Made by a program: the position numbers and the translations under genes
Part shown: positions 1,974 to 21,225 of the stretch, piece by piece
Numbering within the stretch: the first letter of the stretch is position 1
How the letters are laid out: each line of letters begins with the position of its first letter
Notes under the pieces: model-generated
Told to the model about the DNA's origin: nothing
Database searches by the model: none
The model's input: only the letters and a program-made list of their open reading frames with translations
NCBI GenBank assembly: GCA_030374765.1
Contig: JARGXX010000093.1
Location: 1-64,000 of the forward strand
DNA length: 64,000 bases
Origin: Agarophyton chilense
Lineage: Eukaryota > Rhodophyta > Florideophyceae > Gracilariales > Gracilariaceae
Reading direction: 5' to 3'

Positions 1974-4900
1974 AGAGCACAGCGACGCCGCACATTCCCA
2001 CCGCATTTCTTAACACCTAAACCCCGTTCGCGGAATAGAAAAATGCCGTCGCCAACCAAGTACCCTTAAGGGGAACAGTTGCAAGTCGATTAGTACCTTA
2101 AATGGAAACGTCGCAAGTCCATAAGTCAAGCCAATATGAGTACGTTTAGCTCAGTGGTTAATATTTGTTAATATTTTCCACAAGTCGTGGGTTCAATTCC
2201 CATTGTTTGCAGGACAATTACAATTAGGAGTAGCGCCCCTAATATCATGTAATTAGCTTAATGACGAGGTAACACTTGCAATTAAGGTTTGGCCACCCCT
2301 AATTAGCAAATTAAGTTCCTCCAGAGCACAGCGACGCCGCACATTCCCACCGCATTTCTTAACACCTAAACCCCGTTCGCGGAATAGAAAAATGCCGTCG
2401 CCAACCAAGTACCCTTAAGGGGAACAGTTGCAAGTCGATTAGTACCTTAAATGGAAACGTCGCAAGTCCATAAGTCAAGCCAATATGAGTACGTTTAGCT
2501 CAGTGGTTAATATTTGTTAATATTTTCCACAAGTCGTGGGTTCAATTCCCATTGTTTGCAGGACAATTACAATTAGGAGTAGCGCCCCTAATATCATGTA
2601 ATTAGCTTAATGACGAGGTAACACTTGCAATTAAGGTTTGGCCACCCCTAATTAGCAAATTAAGTTCCTCCAGAGCACAGCGACGCCGCACATTCCCACC
2701 GCATTTCTTAACACCTAAACCCCGTTCGCGGAATAGAAAAATGCCGTCGCCAACCAAGTACCCTTAAGGGGAACAGTTGCAAGTCGATTAGTACCTTAAA
2801 TGGAAACGTCGCAAGTCCATAAGTCAAGCCAATATGAGTACGTTTAGCTCAGTGGTTAATATTTGTTAATATTTTCCACAAGTCGTGGGTTCAATTCCCA
2901 TTGTTTGCAGGACAATTACAATTAGGAGTAGCGCCCCTAATATCATGTAATTAGCTTAATGACGAGGTAACACTTGCAATTAAGGTTTGGCCACCCCTAA
3001 TTAGCAAATTAAGTTCCTCCAGAGCACAGCGACGCCGCACATTCCCACCGCATTTCTTAACACCTAAACCCCGTTCGCGGAATAGAAAAATGCCGTCGCC
3101 AACCAAGTACCCTTAAGGGGAACAGTTGCAAGTCGATTAGTACCTTAAATGGAAACGTCGCAAGTCCATAAGTCAAGCCAATATGAGTACGTTTAGCTCA
3201 GTGGTTAATATTTGTTAATATTTTCCACAAGTCGTGGGTTCAATTCCCATTGTTTGCAGGACAATTACAATTAGGAGTAGCGCCCCTAATATCATGTAAT
3301 TAGCTTAATGACGAGGTAACACTTGCAATTAAGGTTTGGCCACCCCTAATTAGCAAATTAAGTTCCTCCAGAGCACAGCGACGCCGCACATTCCCACCGC
3401 ATTTCTTAACACCTAAACCCCGTTCGCGGAATAGAAAAATGCCGTCGCCAACCAAGTACCCTTAAGGGGAACAGTTGCAAGTCGATTAGTACCTTAAATG
3501 GAAACGTCGCAAGTCCATAAGTCAAGCCAATATGAGTACGTTTAGCTCAGTGGTTAATATTTGTTAATATTTTCCACAAGTCGTGGGTTCAATTCCCATT
3601 GTTTGCAGGACAATTACAATTAGGAGTAGCGCCCCTAATATCATGTAATTAGCTTAATGACGAGGTAACACTTGCAATTAAGGTTTGGCCACCCCTAATT
3701 AGCAAATTAAGTTCCTCCAGAGCACAGCGACGCCGCACATTCCCACCGCATTTCTTAACACCTAAACCCCGTTCGCGGAATAGAAAAATGCCGTCGCCAA
3801 CCAAGTACCCTTAAGGGGAACAGTTGCAAGTCGATTAGTACCTTAAATGGAAACGTCGCAAGTCCATAAGTCAAGCCAATATGAGTACGTTTAGCTCAGT
3901 GGTTAATATTTGTTAATATTTTCCACAAGTCGTGGGTTCAATTCCCATTGTTTGCAGGACAATTACAATTAGGAGTAGCGCCCCTAATATCATGTAATTA
4001 GCTTAATGACGAGGTAACACTTGCAATTAAGGTTTGGCCACCCCTAATTAGCAAATTAAGTTCCTCCAGAGCACAGCGACGCCGCACATTCCCACCGCAT
4101 TTCTTAACACCTAAACCCCGTTCGCGGAATAGAAAAATGCCGTCGCCAACCAAGTACCCTTAAGGGGAACAGTTGCAAGTCGATTAGTACCTTAAATGGA
4201 AACGTCGCAAGTCCATAAGTCAAGCCAATATGAGTACGTTTAGCTCAGTGGTTAATATTTGTTAATATTTTCCACAAGTCGTGGGTTCAATTCCCATTGT
4301 TTGCAGGACAATTACAATTAGGAGTAGCGCCCCTAATATCATGTAATTAGCTTAATGACGAGGTAACACTTGCAATTAAGGTTTGGCCACCCCTAATTAG
4401 CAAATTAAGTTCCTCCAGAGCACAGCGACGCCGCACATTCCCACCGCATTTCTTAACACCTAAACCCCGTTCGCGGAATAGAAAAATGCCGTCGCCAACC
4501 AAGTACCCTTAAGGGGAACAGTTGCAAGTCGATTAGTACCTTAAATGGAAACGTCGCAAGTCCATAAGTCAAGCCAATATGAGTACGTTTAGCTCAGTGG
4601 TTAATATTTGTTAATATTTTCCACAAGTCGTGGGTTCAATTCCCATTGTTTGCAGGACAATTACAATTAGGAGTAGCGCCCCTAATATCATGTAATTAGC
4701 TTAATGACGAGGTAACACTTGCAATTAAGGTTTGGCCACCCCTAATTAGCAAATTAAGTTCCTCCAGAGCACAGCGACGCCGCACATTCCCACCGCATTT
4801 CTTAACACCTAAACCCCGTTCGCGGAATAGAAAAATGCCGTCGCCAACCAAGTACCCTTAAGGGGAACAGTTGCAAGTCGATTAGTACCTTAAATGGAAA

Positions 4901-6550
4901 CGTCGCAAGTCCATAAGTCAAGCCAATATGAGTACGTTTAGCTCAGTGGTTAATATTTGTTAATATTTTCCACAAGTCGTGGGTTCAATTCCCATTGTTT
5001 GCAGGACAATTACAATTAGGAGTAGCGCCCCTAATATCATGTAATTAGCTTAATGACGAGGTAACACTTGCAATTAAGGTTTGGCCACCCCTAATTAGCA
5101 AATTAAGTTCCTCCAGAGCACAGCGACGCCGCACATTCCCACCGCATTTCTTAACACCTAAACCCCGTTCGCGGAATAGAAAAATGCCGTCGCCAACCAA
5201 GTACCCTTAAGGGGAACAGTTGCAAGTCGATTAGTACCTTAAATGGAAACGTCGCAAGTCCATAAGTCAAGCCAATATGAGTACGTTTAGCTCAGTGGTT
5301 AATATTTGTTAATATTTTCCACAAGTCGTGGGTTCAATTCCCATTGTTTGCAGGACAATTACAATTAGGAGTAGCGCCCCTAATATCATGTAATTAGCTT
5401 AATGACGAGGTAACACTTGCAATTAAGGTTTGGCCACCCCTAATTAGCAAATTAAGTTCCTCCAGAGCACAGCGACGCCGCACATTCCCACCGCATTTCT
5501 TAACACCTAAACCCCGTTCGCGGAATAGAAAAATGCCGTCGCCAACCAAGTACCCTTAAGGGGAACAGTTGCAAGTCGATTAGTACCTTAAATGGAAACG
5601 TCGCAAGTCCATAAGTCAAGCCAATATGAGTACGTTTAGCTCAGTGGTTAATATTTGTTAATATTTTCCACAAGTCGTGGGTTCAATTCCCATTGTTTGC
5701 AGGACAATTACAATTAGGAGTAGCGCCCCTAATATCATGTAATTAGCTTAATGACGAGGTAACACTTGCAATTAAGGTTTGGCCACCCCTAATTAGCAAA
5801 TTAAGTTCCTCCAGAGCACAGCGACGCCGCACATTCCCACCGCATTTCTTAACACCTAAACCCCGTTCGCGGAATAGAAAAATGCCGTCGCCAACCAAGT
5901 ACCCTTAAGGGGAACAGTTGCAAGTCGATTAGTACCTTAAATGGAAACGTCGCAAGTCCATAAGTCAAGCCAATATGAGTACGTTTAGCTCAGTGGTTAA
6001 TATTTGTTAATATTTTCCACAAGTCGTGGGTTCAATTCCCATTGTTTGCAGGACAATTACAATTAGGAGTAGCGCCCCTAATATCATGTAATTAGCTTAA
6101 TGACGAGGTAACACTTGCAATTAAGGTTTGGCCACCCCTAATTAGCAAATTAAGTTCCTCCAGAGCACAGCGACGCCGCACATTCCCACCGCATTTCTTA
6201 ACACCTAAACCCCGTTCGCGGAATAGAAAAATGCCGTCGCCAACCAAGTACCCTTAAGGGGAACAGTTGCAAGTCGATTAGTACCTTAAATGGAAACGTC
6301 GCAAGTCCATAAGTCAAGCCAATATGAGTACGTTTAGCTCAGTGGTTAATATTTGTTAATATTTTCCACAAGTCGTGGGTTCAATTCCCATTGTTTGCAG
6401 GACAATTACAATTAGGAGTAGCGCCCCTAATATCATGTAATTAGCTTAATGACGAGGTAACACTTGCAATTAAGGTTTGGCCACCCCTAATTAGCAAATT
6501 AAGTTCCTCCAGAGCACAGCGACGCCGCACATTCCCACCGCATTTCTTAA
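1974..6550. repeat. 349-bp subtelomeric tandem array, 13 copies plus a partial
   Basis: A unit starting AGAGCACAGCGACGCCGC recurs with an exact 349-bp period at 1974, 2323, 2672, 3021 and so on to 6162. A 14th copy starting at 6511 breaks off at about 6550, where telomeric repeat resumes. The copies look identical by eye, so the array is recently amplified, homogenised by conversion, or an assembly product. The unit itself contains a telomere-like CCTAAACCCC, and the right junction falls exactly there, pointing to recombination between that stretch and true telomere. Each unit also holds a tRNA-like segment, a CCCTTAAGGGG near-palindrome and an ATTAGG...CCTAAT inverted pair. No long reading frame is present. 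Confidence 0.95.
2140..2210 (+). tRNA. tRNA-like segment (probably tRNA pseudogene or Pol III promoter unit)
   Basis: This 71-nt segment in the first repeat unit recurs every 349 bp (13 copies, last at 6328). It carries a good A box (TAGCTCAGTGG) and a good B box (GGTTCAATTCC) at normal tRNA spacing, and a T arm that pairs as GTGGG/CCCAT around a seven-base loop. The acceptor stem pairs only in part, the D stem is not closed and the anticodon stem is weak. The TGTTAA...CCACAAGTCG stretch recalls tRNA-Asn. It is most likely a degenerate tRNA or tRNA-derived SINE-like piece rather than a working tRNA, but it could still recruit RNA polymerase III. Confidence 0.5.
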
Positions 6551-6842
6551 CCCCTAAACCCCTAAACCCCTAAACCCCTAAAAACCCCTAAACCCCTAAA
6601 CCCCTAAAGCCCTAAACCCCTAAACCCCTAAACCCCCTAAACCCCTAAAACCCCTAAACCCCTAAACCCCTAAAACGCCCTAAACCCCTAAAACCCCTAA
6701 ACCCCTAAACCCCTAAACCCCTAAACCCCTAAACCCCTAAACGCCCTAAACCCCTACACAATGTTTTCCTCTCCGTAAATTCAAAATCCCATAAAGGTAA
6801 AGCTTCCCCTAAAACCCCTAAACTCCTAAACCCCTGAAACCT
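6551..6842. repeat. Internal telomeric repeat tract
   Basis: CCCCTAAA repeats resume directly after the broken 14th tandem unit and run cleanly to about 6756. They then continue as scattered degenerate units (CCCCTAAAACCCC, CTCCTAAACCCC) to about 6842. The inward decay marks this as an older tract than the terminal one, so the 349-bp array sits inside what was once a continuous telomere. Confidence 0.9.
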
Positions 6843-6891
6843 GTAAAAGCCAGTACCCAATTGTTTCCTGTACGAAAACGTAAACTCCCGT

Positions 6892-7752
6892 AGGCCCTGA
6901 CCAATAGCTACTTTGTGGCGATGGCACTGTTGGACAAACCTTAACGTCATAAGACCCTACCTGGCATCGTTAAGCATACGTCATCCCTACCTCACTAAAC
7001 GCACTGCACGCGTCTTCTTTAGCTGAGAGTGTGGCGCCAGCACTCGCCTGACCTACTACTCACCACACTCAACCTCCATTGAACTTGACAATACCAACGA
7101 ATATCGGCCCCCAGTGTTGCCGGATATGAAAACCATCCTAGAACCAAGCGCAAACGCACCTTTTCTAGCCGCGTCCACGACCCCAAAAACGCACATACAA
7201 AACGCCTGACAATGTGCCAACTGCCTCCACGAAATCGCCACAGAACCAAGCGCAAACGCATACCCCAACCCTTTCTTTTGATAAAAATTTCGCACATTAT
7301 CCAGCTTACAACACAGCTCGACTGTGCAGCGGAGATGTGGCTGAAACCAAGCGCCTTTGAGTGCCACACTCGACGCACGCCTCCACGTTGTGTAGCAAAA
7401 ATGTTACAATAAAGCATGTGCAAACGCAGGATTGGGCAGAAAGCCCAGCGCGCGTAAAATTTATGATTTTTTCAAATGCAAAAATTGCGAAAATGGGTGC
7501 TGCGCCCCAACATCTGGCAAGTCGCGCGCTACGTTACCCGAACGAAGCGCCTGAGCGCAATTAGCCACGATTTTTTGAGCGTGCCAATGTGTCATACGCG
7601 CTCTCCAGCACAACGTTTTCCATCCAGGGGGTCAAAATCGCACATACGTCGAATGCAGCGCGTGGCGCTTGGTGTATGTAATTACCAAGCGCTACTGACA
7701 ACTGCGTTTTACCAAGCGCCAGCCCACACTTACAACCTGTAATATATATATA
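6892..7752. repeat. Subtelomeric repeat, copy A
   Basis: Copy A of a dispersed repeat also found at 21226-21836 (copy B, left part missing) and 22623-23480 (copy C, full). A and C align from AGGCCCTGA to a terminal (TA)n run and differ only at scattered positions. The repeat is studded with ACCAAGCGC or close variants (about 7143, 7234, 7349, 7684, 7712), with CAAAAACGCACATAC near 7183, and with a hairpin at 7665-7692. Short frames on both strands are open in all copies but their products resemble nothing I know, so I read it as non-coding. Confidence 0.85.
7665..7692. other. Conserved hairpin in the subtelomeric repeat
   Basis: GCGCTTGGT and ACCAAGCGC form a perfect 9-bp inverted pair around a 10-base loop. 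The same pair occurs at 21750-21777 and 23396-23423, with one base changed in the loop of the last. The arms are the same 9-mer that recurs singly through the repeat, so this may be a paired protein-binding site. Confidence 0.6.
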
Positions 7753-7802
7753 AACCACTTCCCGTCCGTTTCAGCCTCTACTTTTTGCACCATTGTAAAG
7801 TG

Positions 7803-7871
7803 CAGGGCCGTAGCTACAGATATAGTGCGCCCTCCCCGGGACCCCCCCCGAATTGGGGGGCTGCGCCCCCC
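7803..7871. other. Possible left terminus of the telomeric mobile unit
   Basis: CAGGGCCGTAGCTACAG resembles the terminal inverted repeats of several eukaryotic cut-and-paste families, which often begin CAGGG.CGTAGC. It is followed by a G/C-run block containing the hairpin GGGGGGC-TGC-GCCCCCC (7855-7871). It lies between the end of subtelomeric copy A and the first start codon of the protease gene. No matching inverted copy was found downstream, so this is a suggestion only. Confidence 0.3.
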
Positions 7872-7987
7872 AAACCCCCCCCCCTCTTTTTCGTTCTCAC
7901 CAGGTACTCCATTTGAGGTTTATCTCCGTTCGGATCAACCACTTTTCATTTCCACTACCTCGTTTTGACTTTTTCCGCCTTTCTCTC

Positions 7988-8866
7988 ATGCCCAAGCGCG
8001 ATGCTGTTAAGGTCAATACCGCCTATGACAGAAGTATGGAATCCCTTTCCATCTTCTCGTCAAATGTTTATCGACGAATTCAGGAAGCCAGAACGTCTTC
8101 TGTGCGTGTGGCTTGTGTAGATCTCTTCGTTGGACCCGTTTTTGGCCGTCGCACATCTATGAAGAAGTTAACTACGTTAGCCCAGGAGATTGGTTCAAGT
8201 CTGGAATACCATTTGTCAGAGCCTCTGCTGATACTGAACGGAACGGGTAGCGTGCTGTATGGTAAACTGGTTGTTGTCGGTGGTGGACACCGTTTCCTGG
8301 TGGGAGCCCGACAGAAGCATATGCTCTTGATACCGTACCAAGTTGTGGATCTATCTAATCTTAATGATGATGGAAGTCCTGTAGACTTTTTGCGCCACGA
8401 TTTCCTTCTCATTCATCACATAGAATCTTCTGAGCCGCGGCCTGCGGTTTACGGGATCATGGCACAAGTAGCCGAATATGAAAAGCTTCGAAACTACTGG
8501 AAGATGAAAGAAAATGAGCGCGTCCGCAAGCTCAACCACCCCAGCGCTACACCCCTATCCCCAACACATCCCAAAATTATCGATCTCTACAAGGTACTCT
8601 ACAAACCATCGCGAAACAGAAGTACTCATGCCATTGCTTTCATGGATCCATCTTTAACTATGAAGACATTGCACGGTTACTTATCGGGGGCGGATAGATT
8701 ACTGAAAGCAAACGTGGTTGGAGATCTCTGTTTCTTGGAAGGCTTTGCAAACACAAGCTTCAACATTAGATCGCTTGAAACTGTACGTACCTGGAAGATC
8801 TCAAAGATTAAAGCTACCTTGACCACTGGTTCCATATCATTGAGAAGGAACCAGATACGCTGCTAA
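7988..8866 (+). CDS. Uncharacterised N-terminal frame of the Ulp1-like protease gene
   Basis: The frame is open from 7853, but the first convincing start is the ATG at 7988 (MPKRDAVK), giving 292 residues; upstream sequence is G/C-run repeat. I recognise no domain. The middle part alternates hydrophobic and charged stretches typical of a folded protein (for example LLILNGTGSVLYGKLVVVGG). The last 20 or so codons overlap the next frame, which is shifted by -1 and already open from 8812 with protein-like sequence (YLDHWFHIIEKEPDTLLKF). The two frames therefore probably encode one product, joined by a frameshift, an unrecognised intron or a sequence error. A GTACGT donor at 8783 with AG at 8867-8868 would restore frame but lacks a pyrimidine tract. 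It lies on the same strand as, and upstream of, the recombinase-helicase gene. Confidence 0.6.
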   Translation: MPKRDAVKVNTAYDRSMESLSIFSSNVYRRIQEARTSSVRVACVDLFVGPVFGRRTSMKKLTTLAQEIGSSLEYHLSEPLLILNGTGSVLYGKLVVVGGGHRFLVGARQKHMLLIPYQVVDLSNLNDDGSPVDFLRHDFLLIHHIESSEPRPAVYGIMAQVAEYEKLRNYWKMKENERVRKLNHPSATPLSPTHPKIIDLYKVLYKPSRNRSTHAIAFMDPSLTMKTLHGYLSGADRLLKANVVGDLCFLEGFANTSFNIRSLETVRTWKISKIKATLTTGSISLRRNQIRC

Positions 8867-10788
8867 AGTTTGTCAAGGAGAGAAAAACGGGAAAGAAGAA
8901 GGACAATAATTCTACCGATAAGCAGTCCTGTAAGAACAATTCAACCATCCCCGGTCCGCCGATTCAGCATACAAAGCCTCCTGCTGGATGGGAATCTTAC
9001 ATTAATTGGACAGTGCAGGGGACGCTTTCCCTACTTGATCAACTGAAGTGGGCGCTCGAAGAAGAAGACGAAAGGGTGAGGAAGCAGGCGGGATGTTCGG
9101 CTACGGTGATTGATGACAACTCAGACAAACTGGATATTGTTGAAAAAGTGAGATTGAGGATGTTATCTGCCCAAACGAAAGCTGGGCATGTTGTTGACTT
9201 AGCAGCCCTTGTACAGGAAGAATCTGTTTCTTTCGAAACGGCCAGAGACCGTAGTGCTGAACTAGTTGTGGCAGGAGGGTTACTAAGGACCAAACTCAGT
9301 CTATCTCCAAACGATATACTTTCTATACAGAACCTAAGCTGGGCTACTGATCAAGTGCTTTTGTATACAATCTCGTTTTTGAACAACTGGACAGATCGCA
9401 CTATGAAAGAAATATACGTATTGGACCCTTTACTAACGCACGGGTGGTGGGATAACAAATTTAACGAGGACTCCGCTGCTCTCAGACAGTTGCAGCAAAA
9501 CGTTCGATCGACCACAAAGGCGAAAATCAACCCCCACGAACTAGTTTGGAGGTCTCAGGTGTCGTTCTTGCTAATGTGTGGAAACAAGCACTGGAGCCTA
9601 GCTGTGCTTATAAACCTCCCCCAACTTCTTGATTCAATGGAGTTCAACTCAAATCTTAAGGATGAGCAGTATCCGTCCCACCAAGTCGCTCGATGTATTA
9701 TAATGGATAGCATGAATGCCAAGACATCGCCACATCAGAACCTTGCGCAAAATGTACTGCATTACCTTACCTGTGCGTATCCGAACCCGACGCTACAGAC
9801 TGAGACTCTGCGAAGATCACTTCCCATTTTCGAGTACAGAACAAACCTGCAGAAAGCGTGTGAATGTGGCTTTTTCGCCACTTACCATGCTGCAGTCACA
9901 ACTCGAAACATTCAAGTGTTCCGTGAAGGTAATTTGGAGGATGTACGCACCTACCTCAGTGACGTGCGGAGGAGTTACTCGTTCAGTGAATATGCTCATT
10001 CTCTTCAAACGAGAATGCATATCATGCAATTCAAATTTGGCCAAAACGGGAGAAAATGTGTAGGCAGCAACGTCTTTCTTTGGAACGACTATGAAAGTGC
10101 TCATGAGCCTCATCAGCGCGAGGATTCAAAGAAGTTACCGGAATCAAAGCTCTCCAAACATGAGCCTGTGTCGAACAGGACAAGGCTAAAAGCTGGAACG
10201 TCCAGAACGTCGCAGAAGACCATCGATATCAGCGATGAAGCCCCATCGTCCAACGACCCAACCCGAGAAGACAAATCAACTACAAGGCCACCAACAACTT
10301 CGTCACCCAACCTTGAAACCAACAAAGGAATTGCTCGTGCTCTACTGCAGTTCAGTCTTAATACCGCCCCGGAAACTAAAGTCGAGGAAGGTGGTTTCAT
10401 TCACATTTTGAGCGACCCGAATGTGGAACGGGTGATGCAAGAAGTGTACCGGAGCAACGATGTGCTGCAGGCTATAGGAAAGGTCACTTCCGTTCTGGCG
10501 CCTCGTATTGAAGAGGCTTTGCAAAGGACGAGAACCCCTCCTACAAAAGAGAGTTTCAACGGAGACAAAGGCCCGAGTTTGATGTTACCAACCTCTCAGC
10601 TCGGTGCCTCCAACCCAGATCATCATTTCGAGGAGCGGACTGGCACTGATGCAGAATCAATATTACTGGAAGGTGCAAAATTGATGAAACACAGCGCGGA
10701 CAAGAGTATTCAGAAAGAATGGCAGGAATGTATGCAGAAAGCGAAGGAGCTCATTGATCATGTGAAGAAGAAACGTAGGCTCAACTAG
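8812..10788 (+). CDS. Ulp1/SENP-like cysteine protease (peptidase family C48)
   Basis: The frame is open from 8812 and has no ATG near its start (9013 is GTG), so it depends on the upstream frame. The C48 catalytic set is readable in order: His in NKHWSLAVL (codon 9589), Asp in IIMDSM (codon 9706), oxyanion Gln (codon 9850) and the nucleophile Cys in ECGFF (codon 9865). Family members remove SUMO or related modifiers; many DNA transposons, such as KDZ elements, carry one of unknown role. The last third (after about 10090) is Ser/Thr/Pro-rich and charged, probably disordered, ending in a basic KKKRR tail that could serve as a nuclear signal. It lies upstream of the helicase gene on the same strand with a 1.4-kb gap. 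The protease fold is well supported; the substrate is unknown. Confidence 0.78.
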   Translation, partial: SYLDHWFHIIEKEPDTLLKFVKERKTGKKKDNNSTDKQSCKNNSTIPGPPIQHTKPPAGWESYINWTVQGTLSLLDQLKWALEEEDERVRKQAGCSATVIDDNSDKLDIVEKVRLRMLSAQTKAGHVVDLAALVQEESVSFETARDRSAELVVAGGLLRTKLSLSPNDILSIQNLSWATDQVLLYTISFLNNWTDRTMKEIYVLDPLLTHGWWDNKFNEDSAALRQLQQNVRSTTKAKINPHELVWRSQVSFLLMCGNKHWSLAVLINLPQLLDSMEFNSNLKDEQYPSHQVARCIIMDSMNAKTSPHQNLAQNVLHYLTCAYPNPTLQTETLRRSLPIFEYRTNLQKACECGFFATYHAAVTTRNIQVFREGNLEDVRTYLSDVRRSYSFSEYAHSLQTRMHIMQFKFGQNGRKCVGSNVFLWNDYESAHEPHQREDSKKLPESKLSKHEPVSNRTRLKAGTSRTSQKTIDISDEAPSSNDPTREDKSTTRPPTTSSPNLETNKGIARALLQFSLNTAPETKVEEGGFIHILSDPNVERVMQEVYRSNDVLQAIGKVTSVLAPRIEEALQRTRTPPTKESFNGDKGPSLMLPTSQLGASNPDHHFEERTGTDAESILLEGAKLMKHSADKSIQKEWQECMQKAKELIDHVKKKRRLN

Positions 10789-12217
10789 ATTTTGTGCCCC
10801 ACAACATAATGAATTCTCGAACCGCATGCTATTTTTTTTCCAAACCAACGGCAAAGCCCTCTTCTTCAAAATAGGACTCTCAACAAATCTCAAAATTATT
10901 TTTACATTCGTTTTTCAACTACATTTTTTACGAATTGGGTGTATAGAATTTGGAAATCACACCTTCGAATGTCAAGACAATTAATTTCGATATTGTTTCA
11001 AATCTTTTCGAAATGGAGGGCATAATCCTCCTATTCACAATGTGGCGCTCAGGGAAACTTCGAAAGTTTTATTCAAAACTTATTGTGAGTCTTAAAACGT
11101 GAAAAATGCAGTCTTCAATCAAATAATTTAGAACGTTTTCTGAAATATTCAAAATTGATGGCATCGTCGTGTTTTCCGGTATGTGACGCTCCGCCAATTT
11201 TTAACAATTTGGTTCGACACTAATGCAGAGCCAATTTACATGGACCTTTCATTTTTCACAACTTGAACCAATCAAGAGTCTCTTCGAGGTCAATCTTAAT
11301 AGAAATCGGACTCTCATTTTTCGGTAGCGACAACTGACTACCCTAACGTTTCATGGTGTGTGCAATGAATACAGATTGAGACACACTCTTCTTTTCAGAT
11401 CAGAAAAATTCTGGAATTATTCGAATACTTCGATAAACATATTATTCTGGTTTATCAGACTCACGAATTTGTTCACTTGACCAACGGACCTTTCAGCTAG
11501 GATTGAGAAATACACAAAGTTCTAGGAAAATGGATTACCAATTACTCTTTTCCAACTTACTATCACTACACTCAAAATACGCCGTTGAACGACCACCTGA
11601 CACAAATGGAACGGAGAATGTTCACGAAAAAAATGGTAGAAGTTCATCCAAGATTTATGCACGAAGCAAAACTTCGCTCACCGGAACGCTATTTCACAAT
11701 ATCCACCATCACCATCGAGTCGTATCAGTTTTTCTGTCGGGATCCGAATATGTGGAACACCGCAAATATTCAGGTGTCCATCACCAAGTAAGCAGTTCGC
11801 ATCATTCCTTGAGATTGTGGTCCCCCCATTTGTGAATGCTTCCCGCAGCGCATTCATAATGAAGAGCACATGGAACACGGTGAAAAATCATGCATGTTTT
11901 CGTTGCCAAGTAAGCAGCTTGCATCATTCCATGATGCTACAATCCCCCATTGCAAACGTTACACGGATCGCAATCATAATTTCATTTGCGATTCTGCCCT
12001 TCTCCAGAAATCAACATGGAGCAAGTGGGTCCAATATCCCTTTAGGATACACCTTATCACACATCACCACACTACATCAATATGGCTTTGCATGTTGTGT
12101 CTTTCGAGTGCATTCTTCGTCTTCTTCTTCAGCCTGGAGCTTTCGTTGGAGCTTGGTATTTGCCTTTTCTTGCGTGCATACTGTGTTCACACTCTTTTTT
12201 TCATCAATCAAACCATT
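10789..12217 (+). other. AT-rich gap with a 122-bp duplication before the helicase gene
   Basis: 10789-11500 is AT-rich with no supported gene. From 11503 short overlapping frames appear. About 11748-11869 and 11870-11991 are diverged tandem copies 122 bp apart, each containing CCAAGTAAGCAG followed by TTGCATCATTCC or similar. The CAA|GTAAGC in each looks like a 5' splice site, so this may be a duplicated small exon-intron unit belonging to the 5' end of the gene starting at 12218. The long frame remains open back to 11870 but the added 116 residues are low in conserved character. Confidence 0.45.
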
Positions 12218-15200
12218 ATGAACGGGGATATAGAAATTGGAGTTCATTCAGTGGGATTCTTCGTGTTGTGCCTTACATGTAAATTGGGAATACGATCTTC
12301 AAAAGGGGTAGCACGCCATCTATCTGTTCGGCACGGTGCCTCAACTGATGAGGGAAAAGATATGGCTGCGACAGTTTCGGAGAGAAAGCAAGAATTGGAG
12401 TCGAAGCTTCCGTACGTACCTCTCTGGAATCGCTACATCGCTCATAGTGAAGAGGAAAACTGCAGAAGTGGTGTTTCGGGCATGGAGCCGACTGCCGTTT
12501 TTATGTCAGCAAGGCCACTAGCCCCCCTAACCGGCCTTAAAGTCTTGTACGGGTACAAATGCCCGAATTGCATCACGTGCTACACGGACATGAGAAGTTT
12601 ATCTACGCATCTCTCGACCGCGCATGGCGTTGAAGATACGGCCAATGTCATCACTGACGTAAAAAAACATGGATTGATACGCCTGCAAACCATTTTCGGA
12701 GGACGTTGTCGAAAACTGTTTCCTGTATCAGAAGCTGTCCAGGTGGGAGAAGTGACGATCGTCTTCACTTCCAAATGTAGCTCCCCTCGGCAGAAAATTT
12801 CGAATCCTAACCTTCTTGGGCAGAACTCACTGAACGGATCAGAGGAGGGTCTTAGGATCGTTCACGAAGAAATCTCTGGTGTTGGTATGAACTCGGCTGC
12901 CTCAAAAATCATTTCGTCTATTGTAGGGTTTACTGATGACCTACAAGAACAGGAACCTATGCATGACAAGATGAAAAATACTTTTGTTGCCTTGTCAAGG
13001 GTAGATGAGGTCCTAGATCACAGGAAGATATCACTTCAGGACGCGGTGAAACTCTCTGGGTCAATTACTGAGAAAAGTATTTTATGGGACGTCGTGCAGC
13101 AAGACGTCGTTCAGTACCTCAGGATGGTTCGGGATTTAACCATTGACATGCCGAACTGTGTGCTTGAATCTATCAACGTAAGAAGCCGGGGTGATAATCG
13201 CTTTACATTCAGAACCGTTTCTTCTAAGTGCATCAAAGCCTATGCGGTTGAGATAAGTCACTTTCTATCGTTCTGCATCAAATGTCAGCACCGCCATGAA
13301 CACCTATGCAATAAAGAAGTTGCCGGATTAATCGCTTTATATCTGGAGGAGCTTAATGAGAATGTTTTACATCAAAAACTTGACGTTCCAGACCCTTTCA
13401 AATCCACGAAACCAATGTGCTTCAAAAAAAGATACCTTGGTCTTCATTTCTTCATGAAAAGCGTTCTGCTAGAGGTTCGCCCAATGTCTTCTTCTTGCGA
13501 ATCACTTGCAGTGAAAAATTTCTTTAGTTGTCGCTGCGTGCGATCTGAGGAAGACGCTCGTTTGCAGACAGCTCAACCCAACAACTTTCGATATGCAGAA
13601 GCATGGGAGGTCACAAGAACACTTGCAGCTCTCCAGTATTGCATATCTGCCTGCGCAGTGCATGAGGTATCCATTTCTCAAAAACAAAATGAAGACAACA
13701 GAAATGGATTTCTCTTAGACAGCACTGACCACACGATGAATTTGATCAAGGACGCTCTGGACCTCCAAAAGAACAACACTACATCATATGTGCGATCTGC
13801 TTTGAGTTTGGCAATGGGTGTCATTGACCAGGAAGAAATTGCTGTTACTTTCGATTGCTGTCGGAGCCATGATCTCTGTGGAGTGGTCAATAACACTCAT
13901 ATTCGATTACAAGATGTCGGGACTTGGGTGAGGGACGCTCATATCAGAATCGACTCGCTCCTGTTCAGTAACCTTCTGAACAATACTGCACTTCCTGATG
14001 GGTTTATGAACATGATTCAGTCGTTGACAGACAATTTTACTGTTAAGGCCCCAGGTTACAACTTCATGTCAGTTTTGGAAAAGAAAAAGAATTGGTTGCA
14101 AAAGAACACTTGCTTTGTACTCGAATCGTTGAAAACGCGTGCTGGTTGGATTTCTCTTAGTCATCCCAACGCTTCCGGAGTATGTCTTCCAGGAGATAAA
14201 GAAGTTGTAGATTTGCACGGTGTCCTTATGCTCAAGTCAAAGGTTCTTGACTGGTTGAACTACTGCCGTCAGATTCAGGAACTTTTATTGTTCTGTGTAC
14301 ATATATCATCAGGATCTCCTGCTAGGGCTACAGAAATAGCTACTCTTCGTCTCACAAACGATATATATGGGATGCGAAGTCTTTTCGTCTCACAAGGTCA
14401 GGCAATGATCGTTACAAGGTGGGTCAAAACCCGAGGAATGAAAGGATTCTCGAAGCCCATACCACGTTTTCCAGATTCCAAAACAAGCGAGTATTTTCTC
14501 ATGTATCTTGTTCTAATAAGGCCATTGGAAACTGCAATGGTCTCAGCTTTATATGGGCCCTCTTTGGGAAAAGAACACTGGAACATCCTCTTCTGCAACA
14601 AGGGTAAACCTTTCACTGATGATTACATACGCGGTTTGGTATCGAAACATCTTGAACTAAAAGGCATCCAACTAACCTTCAACGACTACAGAAATTATTC
14701 AGTTGGCATGGTCCCTGCCGTTAGTGAAGGAAAAGCTCATGATCTAATGGATCAGATTCGTGACGAGTTCCGTGCAGTCGGGCACAATCAGGCAGCTCAC
14801 AGTGTGGAAACTGCTGAAAGGGCTTACGCCAGAACTAAAGAGGAATTAATCCATTTGCAGAAACCTAGTTTGGACAAGTATCGTAGATGGTCTATGCAAT
14901 GGCACAAATACCTGGGCTTTCACGGGAAAGAAAGGAACGCTTCTGAGCTTCAAAACGACACAGATGAGTCTGGTCGTCCCAGAAAAAGGCTGAAGCCTTT
15001 AAACTTGCCTACATCAGAGAACAAAGTCCAGATGCAAGACAAGTCAGGGCATCACCCAAATCTTGATACGATTCCTTTCGATGTATCGAAACCAAGTTCT
15101 CAGAGTCTTGGGCGCCGAAGCTATTCTGGAGCCGCTGTTCTGGAAAGCGATATTTCTTTGGAATACAGAGGAAATACAATCTTTGAAATTGGCCCATATC

Positions 15201-17410
15201 AGCCCATGTCTCCCTTCGGTGTCAAACTCGTCGATGTAGGGACTCGTACATATGAACATCATCTCCCTACTTTTCTAGAGCACCTTCGCACAATGAACAG
15301 CTGTAATCACTCGGTGTTTAAGTCCACCATGCAATTTAATGTTACTGTTGCAGTAGCAGAACGCCGTGAAAACATTCTAGTGGTCATGCCCACCGGATCG
15401 GGAAAGACTTTGTGCATTCTACTTCCAGCGTTTATGGAACGCTCATCCTTTACTACAATCATGATTGTTCCGCTGGTGGCACTGGTAGAGGAACTTAGGC
15501 TCCGTGCCGAAAAATGTGGGCTTCATGCCAGTGCAACTATACCTGGAAACATCGGAGAGCCAGCCGACGTTTACATGCTCGTTCCCGAGCAGGTTCGGGA
15601 CCAACGATTCAAGCAGTTGGTTCAAAAACTTGTGGCGGAGAGAAGACTGGCCCGCGTTGTAATCGACGAAGCCCATCTCACTGCATCTTGGTCTTCTTTT
15701 CGACAAAGCCTGCGTGATTTGAGATACGGACTACTTGAAGTACCGAAAAACATCCCACGCATCTTACTAACTCGGACAATTCCACCACGAGATCGCTCTG
15801 CCCTTGTCGCAAAGCATGGAATGCGTAAAGCTTCTGTTCTCAGCATGCCCACAGTCCGCAAGAACCTTTGTTTCGCCGTGATCAACGTCGAAAGCGATTC
15901 ATTATGTTCGCAAGATCGTTCAGAGGGCGGAAGGTTTCAAAGTGCGAAGCAGAAGATCCTCGAGAAGACTCTCTCCGTTCTTGAAGAAAAGTTAGAAGAG
16001 ATAGGTCAACAAGTTAGGCTTAACGCCAATGCTCATCAGGACTCGCCTGCTTTCCGAGTTCTCCTTTACGTCACTCGAAGGAAGGACGCCGAGCAGCTCA
16101 GTGATATTCTATCAGCCTTATACGAGGAGGAACAAGGTTTAGACAACGGAAGCCCCAGGAAACCACTATCGAAAAAGGTCTCTTTTCTTTGCTATCACGC
16201 CGGCATGGACAAGATTCAACGGATCCAGATATACAAAGCTTGGAGACAGCAAAATAGTCAAGGTGAAAAAGATACGACGGATTCATCTCAGTGCACAGTG
16301 GTCCTCATGGTGTGCACGTGTGCGTTTGGAGCTGGAATAGACGCCCCTAATGTGAGAATAGTCTTGCATGTAGGTGGATCTACGTCACTTTCAGACCATG
16401 CTCAGGAGTCTGGAAGAGCAGGGAGGGATGGAAGGCTCGCTTTTTGTATCACCGTCTACTCCAGTAGTCTTGCACGTTCCTTTGAGGCTGAACTAGAGCG
16501 AAAGGCATTGCAGATCCAAAATGAAGAAGACTATATTAAACTAGAGCAGTGGAGGGAAGAACAGAAATGGCTCGAAAACACTTTGTTGTGCCGAAAGAAC
16601 TGGATGTATGGTGTCATGGACGGGGAACAAAGTGGCATGTGCCTGCTAGATAGCGAGTCGGAAAATTGTGACATTTGCGACACTCAAAGCAATGGTGCAC
16701 CAAAATTTGATGACGGTGATAAGCGACAGAGTTGGGAGAATTGCAGCCCTGCTGGGCCGAAATGGAGACCGAAACCCCACGCCCTGGAAGCGGAAGGTCC
16801 TGCTAACGCCTTCTCTCAAGCATATGAACCTTCTAGTCGGGCACTACAATTTACATCTTCTCATGAAGAAGACTCAATGAGTCATGTTGTAGGGACTTGT
16901 GAGTCCCTCATTCGAGAATTTGAACATGATTGCATTGCTTGCTATGTTTCACACAAAGCAGTTGTGAAACACGGTAATCAAAGTTGCGGGTGGAAAAGGA
17001 ACCGATGCTTCAGATGCTACTCAAAGGATCACAGGTACCACTTGTGTGACAAAGATCTTGCAATACCATCTGGAGGTTGTTTCAAGTGTGGTCTGTCTTA
17101 CGCGAAAGGATTCAAAGTACACAGGGATGGGCTGGGTTTCGGTCCTACTTGTAGACTGGTTCTTCTCAGGGAGCTTGGCTGGTTTCTGTGGAGATCATCG
17201 CCGATGAAAAGGGCGCGTTTGGTACAGGATCTTTTCTGCGACAGAGACTGCAGTCTCTTCAACGAATCACAAGTGGCAAGCTTACGTTCTGACTCTACTA
17301 TGTTTCACGAACAAGACCGGGTGTTTGCGAAATGGTTACCGTCGTCGGACGACGAAACTCCCAATGTTCTAAGGATTTGCGTTTGGTTTTCAAATATGAG
17401 GAAGGAGTAA
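12218..17410 (+). CDS. C2H2 - tyrosine recombinase-like - RecQ helicase - zinc knuckle protein
   Basis: I start at ATG 12218 (1730 residues) because the next residues lead straight into the first zinc finger. Domains in order: C2H2 finger C18/C21/H34/H39; second finger C115/C118/H131/H136, a pair like that of fungal OrsC/DUF3505 proteins; a tyrosine recombinase-like region with R703, K737, N822..R825 (Asn where His is usual), H856 and Y870; an SF2 RecQ-like helicase with Walker A PTGSGKT (1058-1064), DEAH (1150-1153) and motif VI QESGRAGRDGR (1396-1406); a CCHC knuckle C1597/C1600/H1605/C1610 and a further CxxC at 1621. Telomere-linked RecQ helicases are known at fungal chromosome ends. With its position 5 kb inside the telomere tracts and its Ulp1 neighbour, I infer a DNA-integrating, helicase-bearing subtelomeric element. 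The frame is intact. It could instead be a domesticated telomere-maintenance gene. Confidence 0.85.
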   Translation: MNGDIEIGVHSVGFFVLCLTCKLGIRSSKGVARHLSVRHGASTDEGKDMAATVSERKQELESKLPYVPLWNRYIAHSEEENCRSGVSGMEPTAVFMSARPLAPLTGLKVLYGYKCPNCITCYTDMRSLSTHLSTAHGVEDTANVITDVKKHGLIRLQTIFGGRCRKLFPVSEAVQVGEVTIVFTSKCSSPRQKISNPNLLGQNSLNGSEEGLRIVHEEISGVGMNSAASKIISSIVGFTDDLQEQEPMHDKMKNTFVALSRVDEVLDHRKISLQDAVKLSGSITEKSILWDVVQQDVVQYLRMVRDLTIDMPNCVLESINVRSRGDNRFTFRTVSSKCIKAYAVEISHFLSFCIKCQHRHEHLCNKEVAGLIALYLEELNENVLHQKLDVPDPFKSTKPMCFKKRYLGLHFFMKSVLLEVRPMSSSCESLAVKNFFSCRCVRSEEDARLQTAQPNNFRYAEAWEVTRTLAALQYCISACAVHEVSISQKQNEDNRNGFLLDSTDHTMNLIKDALDLQKNNTTSYVRSALSLAMGVIDQEEIAVTFDCCRSHDLCGVVNNTHIRLQDVGTWVRDAHIRIDSLLFSNLLNNTALPDGFMNMIQSLTDNFTVKAPGYNFMSVLEKKKNWLQKNTCFVLESLKTRAGWISLSHPNASGVCLPGDKEVVDLHGVLMLKSKVLDWLNYCRQIQELLLFCVHISSGSPARATEIATLRLTNDIYGMRSLFVSQGQAMIVTRWVKTRGMKGFSKPIPRFPDSKTSEYFLMYLVLIRPLETAMVSALYGPSLGKEHWNILFCNKGKPFTDDYIRGLVSKHLELKGIQLTFNDYRNYSVGMVPAVSEGKAHDLMDQIRDEFRAVGHNQAAHSVETAERAYARTKEELIHLQKPSLDKYRRWSMQWHKYLGFHGKERNASELQNDTDESGRPRKRLKPLNLPTSENKVQMQDKSGHHPNLDTIPFDVSKPSSQSLGRRSYSGAAVLESDISLEYRGNTIFEIGPYQPMSPFGVKLVDVGTRTYEHHLPTFLEHLRTMNSCNHSVFKSTMQFNVTVAVAERRENILVVMPTGSGKTLCILLPAFMERSSFTTIMIVPLVALVEELRLRAEKCGLHASATIPGNIGEPADVYMLVPEQVRDQRFKQLVQKLVAERRLARVVIDEAHLTASWSSFRQSLRDLRYGLLEVPKNIPRILLTRTIPPRDRSALVAKHGMRKASVLSMPTVRKNLCFAVINVESDSLCSQDRSEGGRFQSAKQKILEKTLSVLEEKLEEIGQQVRLNANAHQDSPAFRVLLYVTRRKDAEQLSDILSALYEEEQGLDNGSPRKPLSKKVSFLCYHAGMDKIQRIQIYKAWRQQNSQGEKDTTDSSQCTVVLMVCTCAFGAGIDAPNVRIVLHVGGSTSLSDHAQESGRAGRDGRLAFCITVYSSSLARSFEAELERKALQIQNEEDYIKLEQWREEQKWLENTLLCRKNWMYGVMDGEQSGMCLLDSESENCDICDTQSNGAPKFDDGDKRQSWENCSPAGPKWRPKPHALEAEGPANAFSQAYEPSSRALQFTSSHEEDSMSHVVGTCESLIREFEHDCIACYVSHKAVVKHGNQSCGWKRNRCFRCYSKDHRYHLCDKDLAIPSGGCFKCGLSYAKGFKVHRDGLGFGPTCRLVLLRELGWFLWRSSPMKRARLVQDLFCDRDCSLFNESQVASLRSDSTMFHEQDRVFAKWLPSSDDETPNVLRICVWFSNMRKE

Positions 17411-17838
17411 AACGAGCTTAGTCAGATATGAAAGTAAATGCAGCTGTACGTAAGTATAAACTTTCACATTCGTTTCACACGTACATGTGTTAGGGCAGTA
17501 CTGCACCATTACCGATCAGAGATATGAAATGCGAGTTATATGAACCGTGTGATGCTTGAAGTAAAGACCATGCTCCATTTCGCCGCGTTCTATGGTTTTG
17601 GTATCGTAAAATGATCAACAATGGAACGGGGCTCAATTTACCGGAGCGCCTTGGCATACAACTGGTTCTCCAAAAAATTAAAAATTTAATCGCGTTCCAT
17701 TGCATCCATCAGGCGCTGTCAAAAACGCACATACACTTATTCTGCGCTGCGTTCCATGGTTGGCGTCAGAGCAATGACAACATGTAAGCAGCCCAAACGC
17801 ATGTAAAATCATAGAACCCAACCTGATCCTAGTAGTAG
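17411..17838 (+). other. 3' tail of the helicase unit
   Basis: Non-coding tail conserved at 20790-21219 downstream of the second, partial copy. It contains CAAAAACGCACATAC at about 17719, a motif shared with the subtelomeric repeat (about 7183). The two copies part company after TAGTAGTAG, which I take as the right boundary of the duplicated unit. Confidence 0.7.
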
Positions 17839-19744
17839 GGTATCAAGAGGGGAGAGGCTCTGAACTACAGAGACAGTAGACTGTTTCGCTACAAAAGCGG
17901 CCTTTGGTATATTACACCGGAGAGCGTGTCGAAGTGGCGAGATGGGGGCCTTGTCAGCGCTCAGGACGCATTACTTCAAGAATGATCCCAATTTTTAAGA
18001 ATTTCAGAAGAGAATTTAGCTCCATATACTTGCCAAGAGTTTTGTGTACAGAAACATCCCGTATCATGACTTCTTCCATGCGTGAATTACAGTCCTTCAG
18101 AACTGTACAAAATCGTGTAAGAACCTTACTGTACCTGCAGTTTCCTATCAGTCGAGCGGTATTCGCTTCAGGCTATTAATTACGCCGCTTCTGCTGCCAA
18201 TGCGCTAGTCGACGCCGTAGCAACAATAGTGGCGTCCCGTGGCAGCAGCCTCGCTACCGCTCTTGATCGAGTTGCGACACTGCTGGCGATGTTGAAGTTG
18301 CCGCGGTTCGCTCGCTTAACGACTGGTAAGGCTGTCCCACAGTCAATGTGCTTTCCGCTGCTGCGCCGCTCGCCAGGTTACCATCTCTGCCGTCGCCGCC
18401 GCCGAAACACACCGCATGCGAATCCCGCTGCCGATCGTCGCCGTTCGTTGCTGATCGATACGCTGCCGCTGAAGCGCTACAATACTTTCTCGTTGTGACG
18501 AATTTATGCCGCTCATGCACGCTTTAAACTTGCTGCACCCGCACCATTCGTATTGCTGCCGCCTGCTCCGCAACATCACCCCTAGAATTGTGGATTCAGC
18601 CACCGCCCTTTTTCGGTTAGGGTTGAAACCACGCACGGCTCCGGCTGTGGCTCCCGCCGTTCACTCGGTCGTGCTGTTGCGGCCGTTAGACTTCGCATGT
18701 TGATTCGACTGCCAAAGGGCCACGCCAGTTGACTTTCATCACATAGGCCTCCCAATTATTGGAGCCTCCTCCGCCACACCATGCTCGCTGTCGAAGCGGC
18801 CGTCGGGTTGCGTTGGGTGCAGCCCCGGCAGTAGCTTAGTGCTTGTCGAAGTCTCTGCAGCAACATCGCAATCGTTGTTGCCACTGCCATCCAGCGGAGC
18901 TCTTTATAACTGCCGCCATTGCGCCGCGCTCCATAAGCCAAACTTGTTGTCGACGTTGCTGCTGTCTTTCAGTGGAGCTTTTCGTCGCCGCTAGAGTCGG
19001 ATTACATTGGTTGTCGCCGCTAGAGTCGGATTACATTGGTTGTCGCCGCCGTTGTCGCGCCGTACTTGTTGGCGCCGTTCACGTTTCGCTGCGATCGTTT
19101 TCGCCAACGCTTTCTCGCTGCCGGTGCGCTGTTATTATCATCGCAGTCGTTATTTGAGACCTTCGTGCGCATGTCTGCTAGAAAGCTCCTCGCTGGTTCT
19201 CGTCCTCGCCGTCGTACAACCTACAGTCTTAAAAGCGGTCGCCGTCCGGTCTGCTACTGGCGGCCTTCTGATCATGGCGCTTACGCTCTTTGCTGCCCCT
19301 ACTGGCACAATCGGAAACATGTACGTCGTTTTTGGTCGATTCCGACGCAATGCCGCCGGCACTAGCCAGCAGTGACTTGCAGCCGTCCTGTCGCCCGTGC
19401 GCCTTTGAATACGCAGGTTTCGCTCGTTGCCGCCTTCACTTCGCCGGCATCGTGCCGCTGTATACAACACTTTCGCTTCTCCATGCCGCATCCATGAAGC
19501 AACCAGAGCACAGTGTTTGGGACAACTGATAGAACTATCATATAGTTCTGAGACTCGTGATAGTATGACAGTAAGGATTTTACCGTGAAGTTATTTTGGG
19601 GTTAAAGTCGTTTAACAATGTTCGGGTTCAGCGATACGAGAGAGAACCTTAACGTGTTTCGGGCGACGCCAAAAGGGCTCAACATGATGCACATAGGCTG
19701 CGTTGAATCTGGCAGCTGTCCTAACTTTCTGGAACGGGCTTCAG
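17839..19744. other. Gene-free block with degenerate triplet-rich sequence
   Basis: 17839-18179 shows nothing I recognise. About 18180-19500 is a GC-rich stretch of imperfect GCC/GCT/GTC triplets open in several frames on both strands, which is typical of low-complexity DNA rather than a gene. It includes a perfect 29-bp tandem duplication (18984-19012 and 19013-19041). No start, domain or homologous copy supports a coding call. Confidence 0.6.
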
Positions 19745-20000
19745 ACAAAGCCGTGCTTTCTCAGACAACCTTGATTTTCAGCACCATTCATGGTGTTTTT
19801 TCAATCCCGGACAGACATGCGTTTACAACGTCGTGAGGCGTGTTCTTCGCTAAATTCATTAAAATAACATGTCTTTCCGCTCAATCTGGACCTCAGCATA
19901 AAATTTACAATTTTTTTTTTAAACGGCCTTGTTCTCACCTCAGACACAGACATCGAAAAATTCAATGATTTTTCAGCTTCCAAAAACACCAATATATTCA
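19745..20000. repeat. Subtelomeric block shared with 22335-22622
   Basis: This stretch aligns with 22335-22622, sharing TCTCAGACA, the phrase ACTCAGACACAGACATC, and a closing CACCAATATATTCAGG. In one place it runs into the partial helicase copy at 20001; in the other it runs into subtelomeric repeat copy C at 22623. The switch at the same base in both marks a mosaic breakpoint. Confidence 0.7.
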
Positions 20001-20789
20001 GGGGAACAAAGTGGCATGTGCTTGCTGGATAGCGAGTCGGAGAATTGTGACATTTGCGACACTCGAAGCAATGGTGCACCAAAATTTGATGACGGTGATA
20101 AGCGACAGAGTTGGGAGAATTGCAGCCCTGCTGGGCCGAAATGGAGACCGAAACCCCACGCCCTGGAAGCGGAAGGTCCTGCTAACGCCTTCTCTCAAGC
20201 ATATGAACCTTCTAGTCGGGCACTACAATTTACATCTTCTCATGAAGACGACTCAATGAGTCATGTTGTAGGGACTTGCGAGTCCCTCATTAGAGAATTT
20301 GAACATGATTGCATTGCTTGCTATGTTTCACACAAAGCAGTTGTGAAACACGGTAATCAAAGTTGCGGGTGGAAAAGGAACCGATGCTTCAGATGCTACT
20401 CAAAGGATCACAGGTACCGCTTGTGTGACAAAGATCTTGCAATACCATCTGGAGGTTGTTTCAAGTGTGGTCTGTCTTACGCGAAAGGATTCAAAGTACA
20501 CAGGGATGGGCTGGGTTTCGGTCCTACTTGTAGACTGGTTCTTCTCAGGGAACTTGGCTGGGTTTTGTGGAGATCATCGCCGATGAAAAGGGCGCGTTTG
20601 GTACAGGATCTTTTCTGCGACAGAGACTGCAGTCTCTTCAACGAATCACAAGTGGCAAGCTTACGTTCTGACTCTACTATGTTTCACGAACAAGACCGGG
20701 TGTTTGCGAAATGGTTATCGTCGTCGGACGACGAAACTCCCAATGTTCTAAGGATTGGCGTTTGGTTTTCAAATGTGAGAAAGGAGTAA
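19965..20789 (+). pseudogene. 5'-truncated copy of the helicase gene (C-terminal zinc-knuckle part)
   Basis: From 20001 this matches 16622-17410 with roughly 1-2% difference by eye. It holds only the C-terminal 262 codons: no recombinase or helicase motif remains, but both zinc-knuckle clusters do. The frame is still open and, by chance or selection, is preceded by an in-frame ATG at 19965 supplied by the upstream repeat (MIFQLPKTPIYSGEQ). Its 3' tail (20790-21219) is also conserved. The loss of the 5' side with an intact 3' end recalls incomplete copying or recombination at a chromosome end. Whether the 274-residue product is made is unknown. Confidence 0.8.
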
Positions 20790-21219
20790 AACGAGCTTAG
20801 TCAGATATGAAAGTAAATGCAGCTGTACGTAAGTATAAACTTTCACATTCGTTTCACACGTACATGTTTTGGGGCAGTACTGCACCATTACCGATCAGAG
20901 ATATGAAATGCGAGTTATATATGAACCGTGTGATGCTTGAAGTAAAGACCATGCTCCATTTCGCCGCGTTCTATGGTTTTGGTATCGTAAAATGATCAAC
21001 AATGGAACGGGGCTCAATTTACCGGAGCGCCTTGGCATACAACTGGTTTTCCAAAAAATTAAAAATTTAATCGCGTTCCATTGCATCCATCAGGCGCTGT
21101 CAAAAACGCACATACACTTATTCTGCGCTGCGTTCCATGGTTGGCGTCAGAGCAATGACAGCATGTAAGCAGCCCAAACGCATGTAAAATGATAGAACCC
21201 AACCTGATCCTAGTAGTAG
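20001..21219 (+). repeat. Partial duplicate of the helicase unit's 3' end
   Basis: A 1219-bp copy of 16622-17838, including coding end and 3' tail, with few substitutions and a 2-bp TA insertion. It is flanked on the left by the block shared with 22335-22622 and on the right, almost directly, by subtelomeric repeat copy B. Confidence 0.9.
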
Positions 21220-21225
21220 AGTCAA

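Follow-up and report, generated by a model that had tools for sequence, protein, structure and literature searches.

What sort of locus sets a SUMO-protease-like gene beside a RecQ helicase gene just inside a telomere is the question raised by the beginning of contig C93 of the red alga Agarophyton chilense, of which we analysed bases 1-64000 (hereafter the window) out of 614,247, in a genome of 79,762,974 bases and 135 contigs. An original prediction, made from these letters alone, had proposed a telomere-associated mobile system consisting of this protease gene and of a gene fusing a recombinase to the helicase. We find that the pair is real and forms one repeated unit, here termed element A, with at least 17 genomic loci of the helicase gene (RecQ-A) and 8 of the protease gene (Ulp1-A), and that the unit is multicopy, located at chromosome ends and evidently mobile. 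The window holds one apparently full-length copy of element A (7751..17838, forward strand, 5' side toward the telomere and 3' side toward the centromere) next to a copy of a second unit, element B, and we favor, at a probability of roughly 0.55, a model where A and B, themselves non-autonomous, are copied onto chromosome ends that have eroded. The anatomy of these units is well supported; the identity of the copying enzyme and the roles of the encoded proteins are what we infer.

RecQ-A is a single open frame on the forward strand (12218..17410, ATG at 12218 and stop at 17410) encoding 1730 amino acids, arranged as an OrsD zinc finger, a tyrosine-recombinase-like core, a RecQ helicase and a C-terminal zinc-knuckle-like region. 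Pfam returns DEAD (E 1e-14) and Helicase_C (E 3e-9) domains and the top relatives of solved structure are RecQ5, BLM, RecQ1 and WRN chains, by which the protein classes, as had been proposed, as a predicted full RecQ helicase. The OrsD C2H2 domain scores 21.9 bits in the window protein, under the Pfam cut-off of 26.6, and 28.2 bits, over it, in the paralogue RecQ-B. Among named relatives the best come from the red alga Gracilariopsis chorda (two proteins, at 37 and 38% identity), fungal ones being found as well in Pyrenophora (P0013) and in a lichen-fungus assembly (P0015); scans of viral and bacterial contigs gave one locus and at least 80 listed loci, respectively, with matches confined to the helicase region. 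Six RecQ-A copies compared with the window copy yield nonsynonymous-to-synonymous rate ratios (dN/dS) of 0.32-0.79, the truncated copies L090 and L091 being omitted for their misaligned ends.

In the putative recombinase core, 17 relatives were aligned. All of them, P0013 and P0015 included, keep R825, H861 and Y870, and the 16 that have the column keep R703 and K737; the histidine three residues before R825 (HxxR) is not conserved among them. A Pfam scan of the middle of the protein gave no integrase or tyrosine-recombinase match. Upon profile comparison with 17 bacterial integrases, drawn from the bacterial and viral contig scans, residues 560-920 matched at P 0.0095 and a shorter core at P 0.033, the same comparison on three other regions of the protein giving P 0.16, 0.56 and 0.71. 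In the alignment the catalytic arginines coincide with R703 and R825, but the match probability is just 4%, and the recombinase assignment is therefore supported by motif, not by fold.

As for the upstream gene (7988..10788, forward strand), the proposed C48 protease with its catalytic set stands in part. HWSLAV, DS and CGFF motifs, carrying the His, Asp and Cys, can be read by eye, and a paralogue on C1, 29% identical to the window protease, scores 28.9 bits with Peptidase_C48 (cut-off 20.7); the window copy itself, however, finds no match in Pfam, PDB or a large protein set (E 0.001) and runs in two frames, split near 8800. An intron at that point was considered and rejected: the copies on C97, C4 and C19 are one open frame each, of 1024, 925 and 982 amino acids, so that we read the frame change as a break. 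No transposase family, that of KDZ elements included, is present among the Pfam matches of element A frames.

The case for copying onto chromosome ends rests on how the copies begin and end. The RecQ search listed 35 rows, of which 19 have at least 89% identity (RecQ-A, 17 loci) and 16 have 32-35% (RecQ-B, 8 loci), and the Ulp1 search 22 rows, 9 of Ulp1-A (8 loci), 11 of a second type, Ulp1-B, and 2 weak ones; as the best 27 of 167 RecQ-A candidates were scored, the RecQ locus counts are lower bounds. At every one of the eight Ulp1-A loci a RecQ-A copy lies about 3.4 kb downstream on the same strand, so that the pair recurs and is not single-copy within this genome. The last helicase residue is reached at all 17 RecQ-A loci, eight of which start within the gene (the C111 copy does so 112 bases from the contig start). 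BLAST of the copies places a single element-A 3' end at window position 17838/17839, which coincides with the end coordinate first proposed, with differing sequences past it: 12 of the 15 3' ends read are identical (..CCTAGTAGTAG) and are followed by 11 different sequences, the other three (L091, L175 and L181) being diverged and one more stretch (L178) giving no match in this comparison. The 5' starts are spread: position 7751 is the start on C93, twice on C98 and on C1 with one neighbour and on C97 with another, and further copies begin at 7840 (C19), 8010 (C4), 11615 (C33, a long RecQ-A copy that by this cut lacks Ulp1-A) or elsewhere at later points within the gene. A constant 3' end with variable 5' truncation amounts to one-ended addition and points to copying onto chromosome ends; internal insertion is disfavoured, since truncation is one-sided and no scored copy is split. 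The suggestion that the recombinase could integrate the element thus finds no support, in that form, in the copies, and RT (reverse transcriptase) copies occupy the same kind of region. On C97 the unit upstream of element A ends in ..CAATTTTAG, and antisense frames at L097:532-2319 and L100:7092-8872 (both minus strand; 595 and 320/308 amino acids) look alike by eye and have no Pfam match.

Element B repeats this anatomy with a different partner gene. Its 3' terminal region adjoins element A upstream as a 5'-truncated, 989-bp copy (6762..7750, forward strand, 3' end 7750). That this repeat might be a separate short element was ruled out, since the RecQ-B 3' regions continue into it: all 11 of those read lead into one leader, after which the 989-bp repeat follows in L096, L098, L099 and L101. 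On C10 the unit reads, in order, a DNA methylase-SET frame, an OrsD-recombinase-RecQ-B frame and the 3' region; the methylase (N6/N4) frame with its SET domain, upstream of RecQ-B, extends from L189:1557 to L099:1082. The protease is hence not obligatory in the architecture, a DNA methylase-SET gene standing in its place. Beside Ulp1-B on C1 we noted an antisense frame of 869 amino acids (L101:3954-6563, minus strand) with weak XerD similarity (E 0.05), possibly a second recombinase.

With the best 40 of 125 candidates scored, all 51 genomic matches of at least 323 bases to the 989-bp repeat stop at base 989, and their starts vary. Of 56 junctions read (55 places, one place in the window being counted twice), 49 have exactly the same end, 3 carry one extra AT and 4 differ; they are followed by 45 different 16-base sequences, or about 40 after near-identical ones are merged. 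A hand count of the 26 junctions whose acceptor is intact elsewhere, which omits those having no known acceptor or lying only beside another unit's end (E3 starts, L124, L092 and L146), gives G as the preceding base in 25 and AG in 15. Splicing as the origin of the AG junctions was rejected, as no common intron-like sequence follows the terminal AG. CTAG has the look of a Helitron 3' end, but Helitron-type ends were dismissed too, truncation here being on the 5' side. An element-B junction on C99 joins sequence resembling that at window position 26946, and on C96 and C121 a truncated 349-bp subtelomeric satellite starts exactly at the element-B 3' end, so that the satellite joins in the same junctions.

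Position and orientation agree with addition at chromosome ends. Units A and B, two further units termed E3 and E4, and an RT unit described below form head-to-tail arrays close to contig ends, and in most cases it is the 5' side that faces the nearest terminus. On contigs of known size of at least 100 kb, copies that lie at most 100 kb from the contig end and point their 5' side outward account for 16/16 places of RecQ-A, 6/6 of RecQ-B, 7/7 of Ulp1-A, 48/49 of the element-B 3' region and 8/10 of Ulp1-B (exceptions C4:1114638 and C103:247215). Elements A and B moreover share a 17-base motif, GTCAAAANCGCACATAC, about 104 nucleotides from the 3' end (17718..17734 in element A, forward strand). 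It occurs five times in the window, each time within an A or B 3' end, and 149 times in the genome (control 0); among 100 places listed, 73 of the 74 testable ones lie close to a contig end and face it with the 5' side. Both elements also have AACCTG about 18 nucleotides from the 3' end, read by eye, and their 3' ends align with a score of 34, as compared to at most 26 in 200 shuffles, this being one of 15 pairs tested. The pairs B-E4, B-E3 and E4-D are marginal (matched by 0.005, 0.025 and 0.035 of shuffles), and E3 and E4 are true relatives.

No RT match was obtained among frames of at least 150 amino acids at 7751-17838, and as A and B show no RT, copying would require a helper. On C1, two head-to-tail units encoding a 602-residue RT lie on the telomere side of an element-A copy. 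This RT scores 30.0 bits with RVT_1, just above the cut-off of 29.6, has no Pfam match to endonuclease families, GIY-YIG included, and carries motifs which we take to be of Penelope type; the 66 relatives found have uninformative names. Genome-wide, 40 rows are identical across all 602 residues, mostly spaced by 3060 bp, and a second family at 71% identity (12 rows) has a period of 3231-3232 bp. On contigs of known size of at least 100 kb, 16 of 22 RT rows lie within 100 kb of the end and point their 5' side outward. RT unit 3' ends continue into telomeric repeats, a truncated copy cut on the 5' side begins in them, and C111 has an element-A 3' end that passes straight into a truncated RT relative. 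A hammerhead-type core is found in the 3' untranslated region (UTR) of both RT copies in L100; the same descriptor matched nowhere in the window or in 10 mononucleotide shuffles of it, and had one additional hit in L100, on its minus strand and away from the RT 3' UTRs; Rfam at its gathering threshold gave no match, including for the hammerhead in L100. A Telomerase-RBD match on C73 marks a TERT-type gene. Altogether, co-occurrence and family knowledge make an RT supplied in trans the most likely helper, the Penelope-type RT being the best candidate and telomerase another. Arrays on C87, C127, C32, C89 and C63, with identical proteins and mostly exact 3060-bp spacing, suggest recent tandem amplification or homogenisation of the RT unit.

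These observations can be combined in a model where the unit transcript would end exactly at the terminal ...AG and the exposed 3' end of the chromosome would pair with its last one or two bases, whereupon an RT acting in trans, most likely that of the endonuclease-less Penelope-type unit from the same kind of region, would extend the end outward along the RNA template, so that the 3' junction would stay constant and the 5' side would often be truncated. The new end would then be capped by telomerase, a TERT-type gene being present, or by another unit. By co-occurrence and family knowledge, RecQ may act in opening or processing the chromosome end, the recombinase-like core in joining or resolving ends, and the C48 protease in stripping SUMO off end-binding or silencing proteins. 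The roles first proposed, unwinding of G-rich ends by the helicase and countering of SUMO-based silencing by the protease, are likewise conjectural.

Several results weigh against copying by such an RT, or against end addition as the sole process. Sequence comparison does not support recognition of A or B by the RT unit: the A-RT and B-RT 3'-end alignments are matched by 0.085 and 0.135 of shuffles and so lack significance, like the remaining pairs, and A and B possess neither the hammerhead motif nor the telomeric 3' end of the RT unit. The 3' end of element A folds no better than shuffles (z +1.1) and that of element B only modestly better (z -2.1). The candidate helper is assigned to the endonuclease-deficient Penelope type from motifs read by eye, size, lack of an endonuclease and the hammerhead core, not from a tree, and it is not confined to chromosome ends: at C98:1360589-1439677 four diverged RT fragments are oppositely oriented, of which two lie past the 100-kb limit, and two further RT pieces are interior (C97:275627 and C98:1042305). 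So are one element-B copy and the two exceptional Ulp1-B copies. The acceptor rule is not strict either, the L147 acceptor (a telomeric repeat) having A rather than G before the junction and the acceptor base differing between copies in L114, L118, L127 and L142. Short 3'-truncated pieces may have escaped, since only the best RecQ-A and element-B candidates were scored. Finally, C93, C98 (two copies) and C1 are alike in their B-A junction, being at least about 99% identical, and segmental duplication therefore occurs as well. An interior block of element-B and Ulp1-B copies at C4:1107940-1116185, about 650 kb from the contig end, could be an old fusion point or an assembly join.

The exact 3' ends also fit a DNA-based route, which we regard as unlikely, whereby a copy, circular or linear, would be attached by one defined end to AG or G at a chromosome end through the recombinase-like domain, later outer loss producing the 5' truncation. 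Both A and B encode this protein, with its R, K, R, H and Y invariant over 17 relatives wherever the column is present, and the 3' ends have one or two bases in common with acceptors; yet these are all that acceptors have in common, the putative recombinase fold is a weak profile match, and none of the 17 RecQ-A loci or 51 longer element-B matches scored is split or 3'-truncated. A broader form of this idea, which we consider quite improbable, would make eukaryotic telomere-linked RecQ genes the engine of RT-less selfish units rather than host genes, with the OrsD-recombinase-RecQ protein and a chromatin-modifying partner (SUMO protease in A, methylase-SET in B) joining a defined 3' end to eroded ends.

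The duplicated blocks on C93, C98 and C1 would be expected, in turn, if A and B were an ordinary subtelomeric gene family and no element at all, spread by unequal exchange, gene conversion or break-induced replication. The tlh genes of S. pombe have spread as such a family. Yeast Y' is a further precedent, going by the accessible part of one account (PMC4522978). Recombination alone, however, would set neither the same terminal base against about 40 different sequences nor a strictly one-sided truncation, and exchange or break-induced replication is hard to fit to one end lying beside so many sequences, so that we give this explanation little credence. It is about as doubtful that A and B belong as accessories to a single giant terminon with an RT elsewhere in the unit acting in cis, as rotifer terminons, in the accessible part of their description (PMC6431247), do combine accessory open reading frames (ORFs) with an endonuclease-less Penelope RT in 5'-truncated head-to-tail arrays, but A has a 3' end of its own, as does B, and both adjoin many different neighbours, not consistently RT, and the RT unit repeats by itself about every 3 kb.

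The remainder of the window supplies the setting in which copying onto chromosome ends is proposed. It opens with a terminal telomeric tract of CCCTAAAC-type repeats (1..1973, C-rich strand shown), a 28-base form of which occurs 392 times forward and 499 times reverse in the genome (control 0 and 0), followed by about 13 copies of the subtelomeric satellite (349-bp unit, 1972..6562) and a second, internal telomeric tract (6549..6756). The satellite is also present on C129, C128, C75, C71, C31, C12, C2, C1, C96 and C121; it contains what are presumably tRNA-like A and B boxes, recognised by eye, and ARAGORN found no tRNA in the window, satellite included. Past the full-length element A come, all on the forward strand, the subtelomeric unit E4 (17839..20002), with no listed frame of at least 150 amino acids inside and its final 246 bases 77% identical to the final bases of E3; a second, 5'-truncated element A (20001..21219, corresponding to 16622-17838 at 98% identity); a 5'-truncated element B (21225..21835, corresponding to 7140-7750); unit E3 (21836..22625); and another 5'-truncated element B (22623..23481, corresponding to 6892-7750). 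Further inward, 26855-31699 and 40664-43600 hold remnants of retroelements of long-terminal-repeat type (pol-like frames, by eye), and 53673-55547 a cysteine-rich frame of 624 amino acids with repeated CPPG-like motifs.

Among known systems, the HeT-A, TART and TAHRE arrays of Drosophila have a constant 3' end on the chromosome, variable 5' truncation and one orientation, and HeT-A encodes no RT. Elements A and B resemble them in all four respects and differ in the proteins encoded and in the presence here of telomeric repeats and a telomerase-type gene. Cryptons and Starships are tyrosine-recombinase elements, with which the units have in common a recombinase-like core in an encoded protein; unlike these, they give no evidence here of precise two-sided insertion. 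A further likeness is to terminons and Athena-type endonuclease-deficient Penelope-like elements, whose description, in its accessible part (PMC6431247), includes chromosome-end position, head-to-tail and 5'-truncated copies, accessory ORFs, an RT without endonuclease and, as in the RT unit here, a hammerhead. Element A, too, forms head-to-tail copies near chromosome ends with the 3' side intact and the 5' side truncated, but it shows no RT, ends in ...CCTAGTAGTAG rather than in a hammerhead followed by telomeric repeats, and carries a C48-type protease and an OrsD-recombinase-RecQ protein as cargo.

Subtelomeric RecQ genes are themselves known from several fungi, as the accessible parts of several sources indicate. 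Telomere-linked helicase (TLH) regions of Fusarium, full and truncated, co-occur with telomeric retroelements, an association not seen with the MoTeRs of Magnaporthe (PMC12857005); chromosome ends of Mycosphaerella graminicola bear RecQ genes, a DNA-methyltransferase repeat and a Penelope-type repeat (PMC4522978); in Agaricus, 19 RecQ gene models are subtelomeric and two ends bear Penelope elements (PMC7473861); and Ganoderma has RecQ genes near some telomeres (PMC10817607). Like fungal TLH and yeast Y', the RecQ genes studied here are subtelomeric, multicopy, and both full and truncated; those are described, in the accessible text, as genes or regions (PMC12857005, PMC4522978), whereas here they belong to units with exact 3' ends and a partner gene. 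The co-occurrence of methylase, RecQ and Penelope-type RT at chromosome ends recalls the Mycosphaerella graminicola methyltransferase repeat (PMC4522978, accessible part), from which element B on C10 differs by its N6/N4-type methylase with a SET domain upstream of the helicase. Telomere-linked RecQ genes and telomeric Penelope elements are thus known, and a RecQ unit with end-addition anatomy appears to be new: in a partial literature survey we met no account in which the RecQ gene forms a unit whose 3' end is defined, or is joined with Ulp1 or a tyrosine recombinase. The units described here place SUMO-protease-like and DNA methylase-SET genes largely at chromosome ends, in a genome with a telomerase-type gene. 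Recent work on fungi, in the part accessible, leaves the link of telomeric retroelements with subtelomeric RecQ genes unexplained (PMC12857005); a RecQ gene within a unit with exact 3' ends and one-sided truncation turns this link into a testable proposal, that such genes ride on chromosome-end addition, and suggests that helicase genes of this type spread by copying onto chromosome ends.

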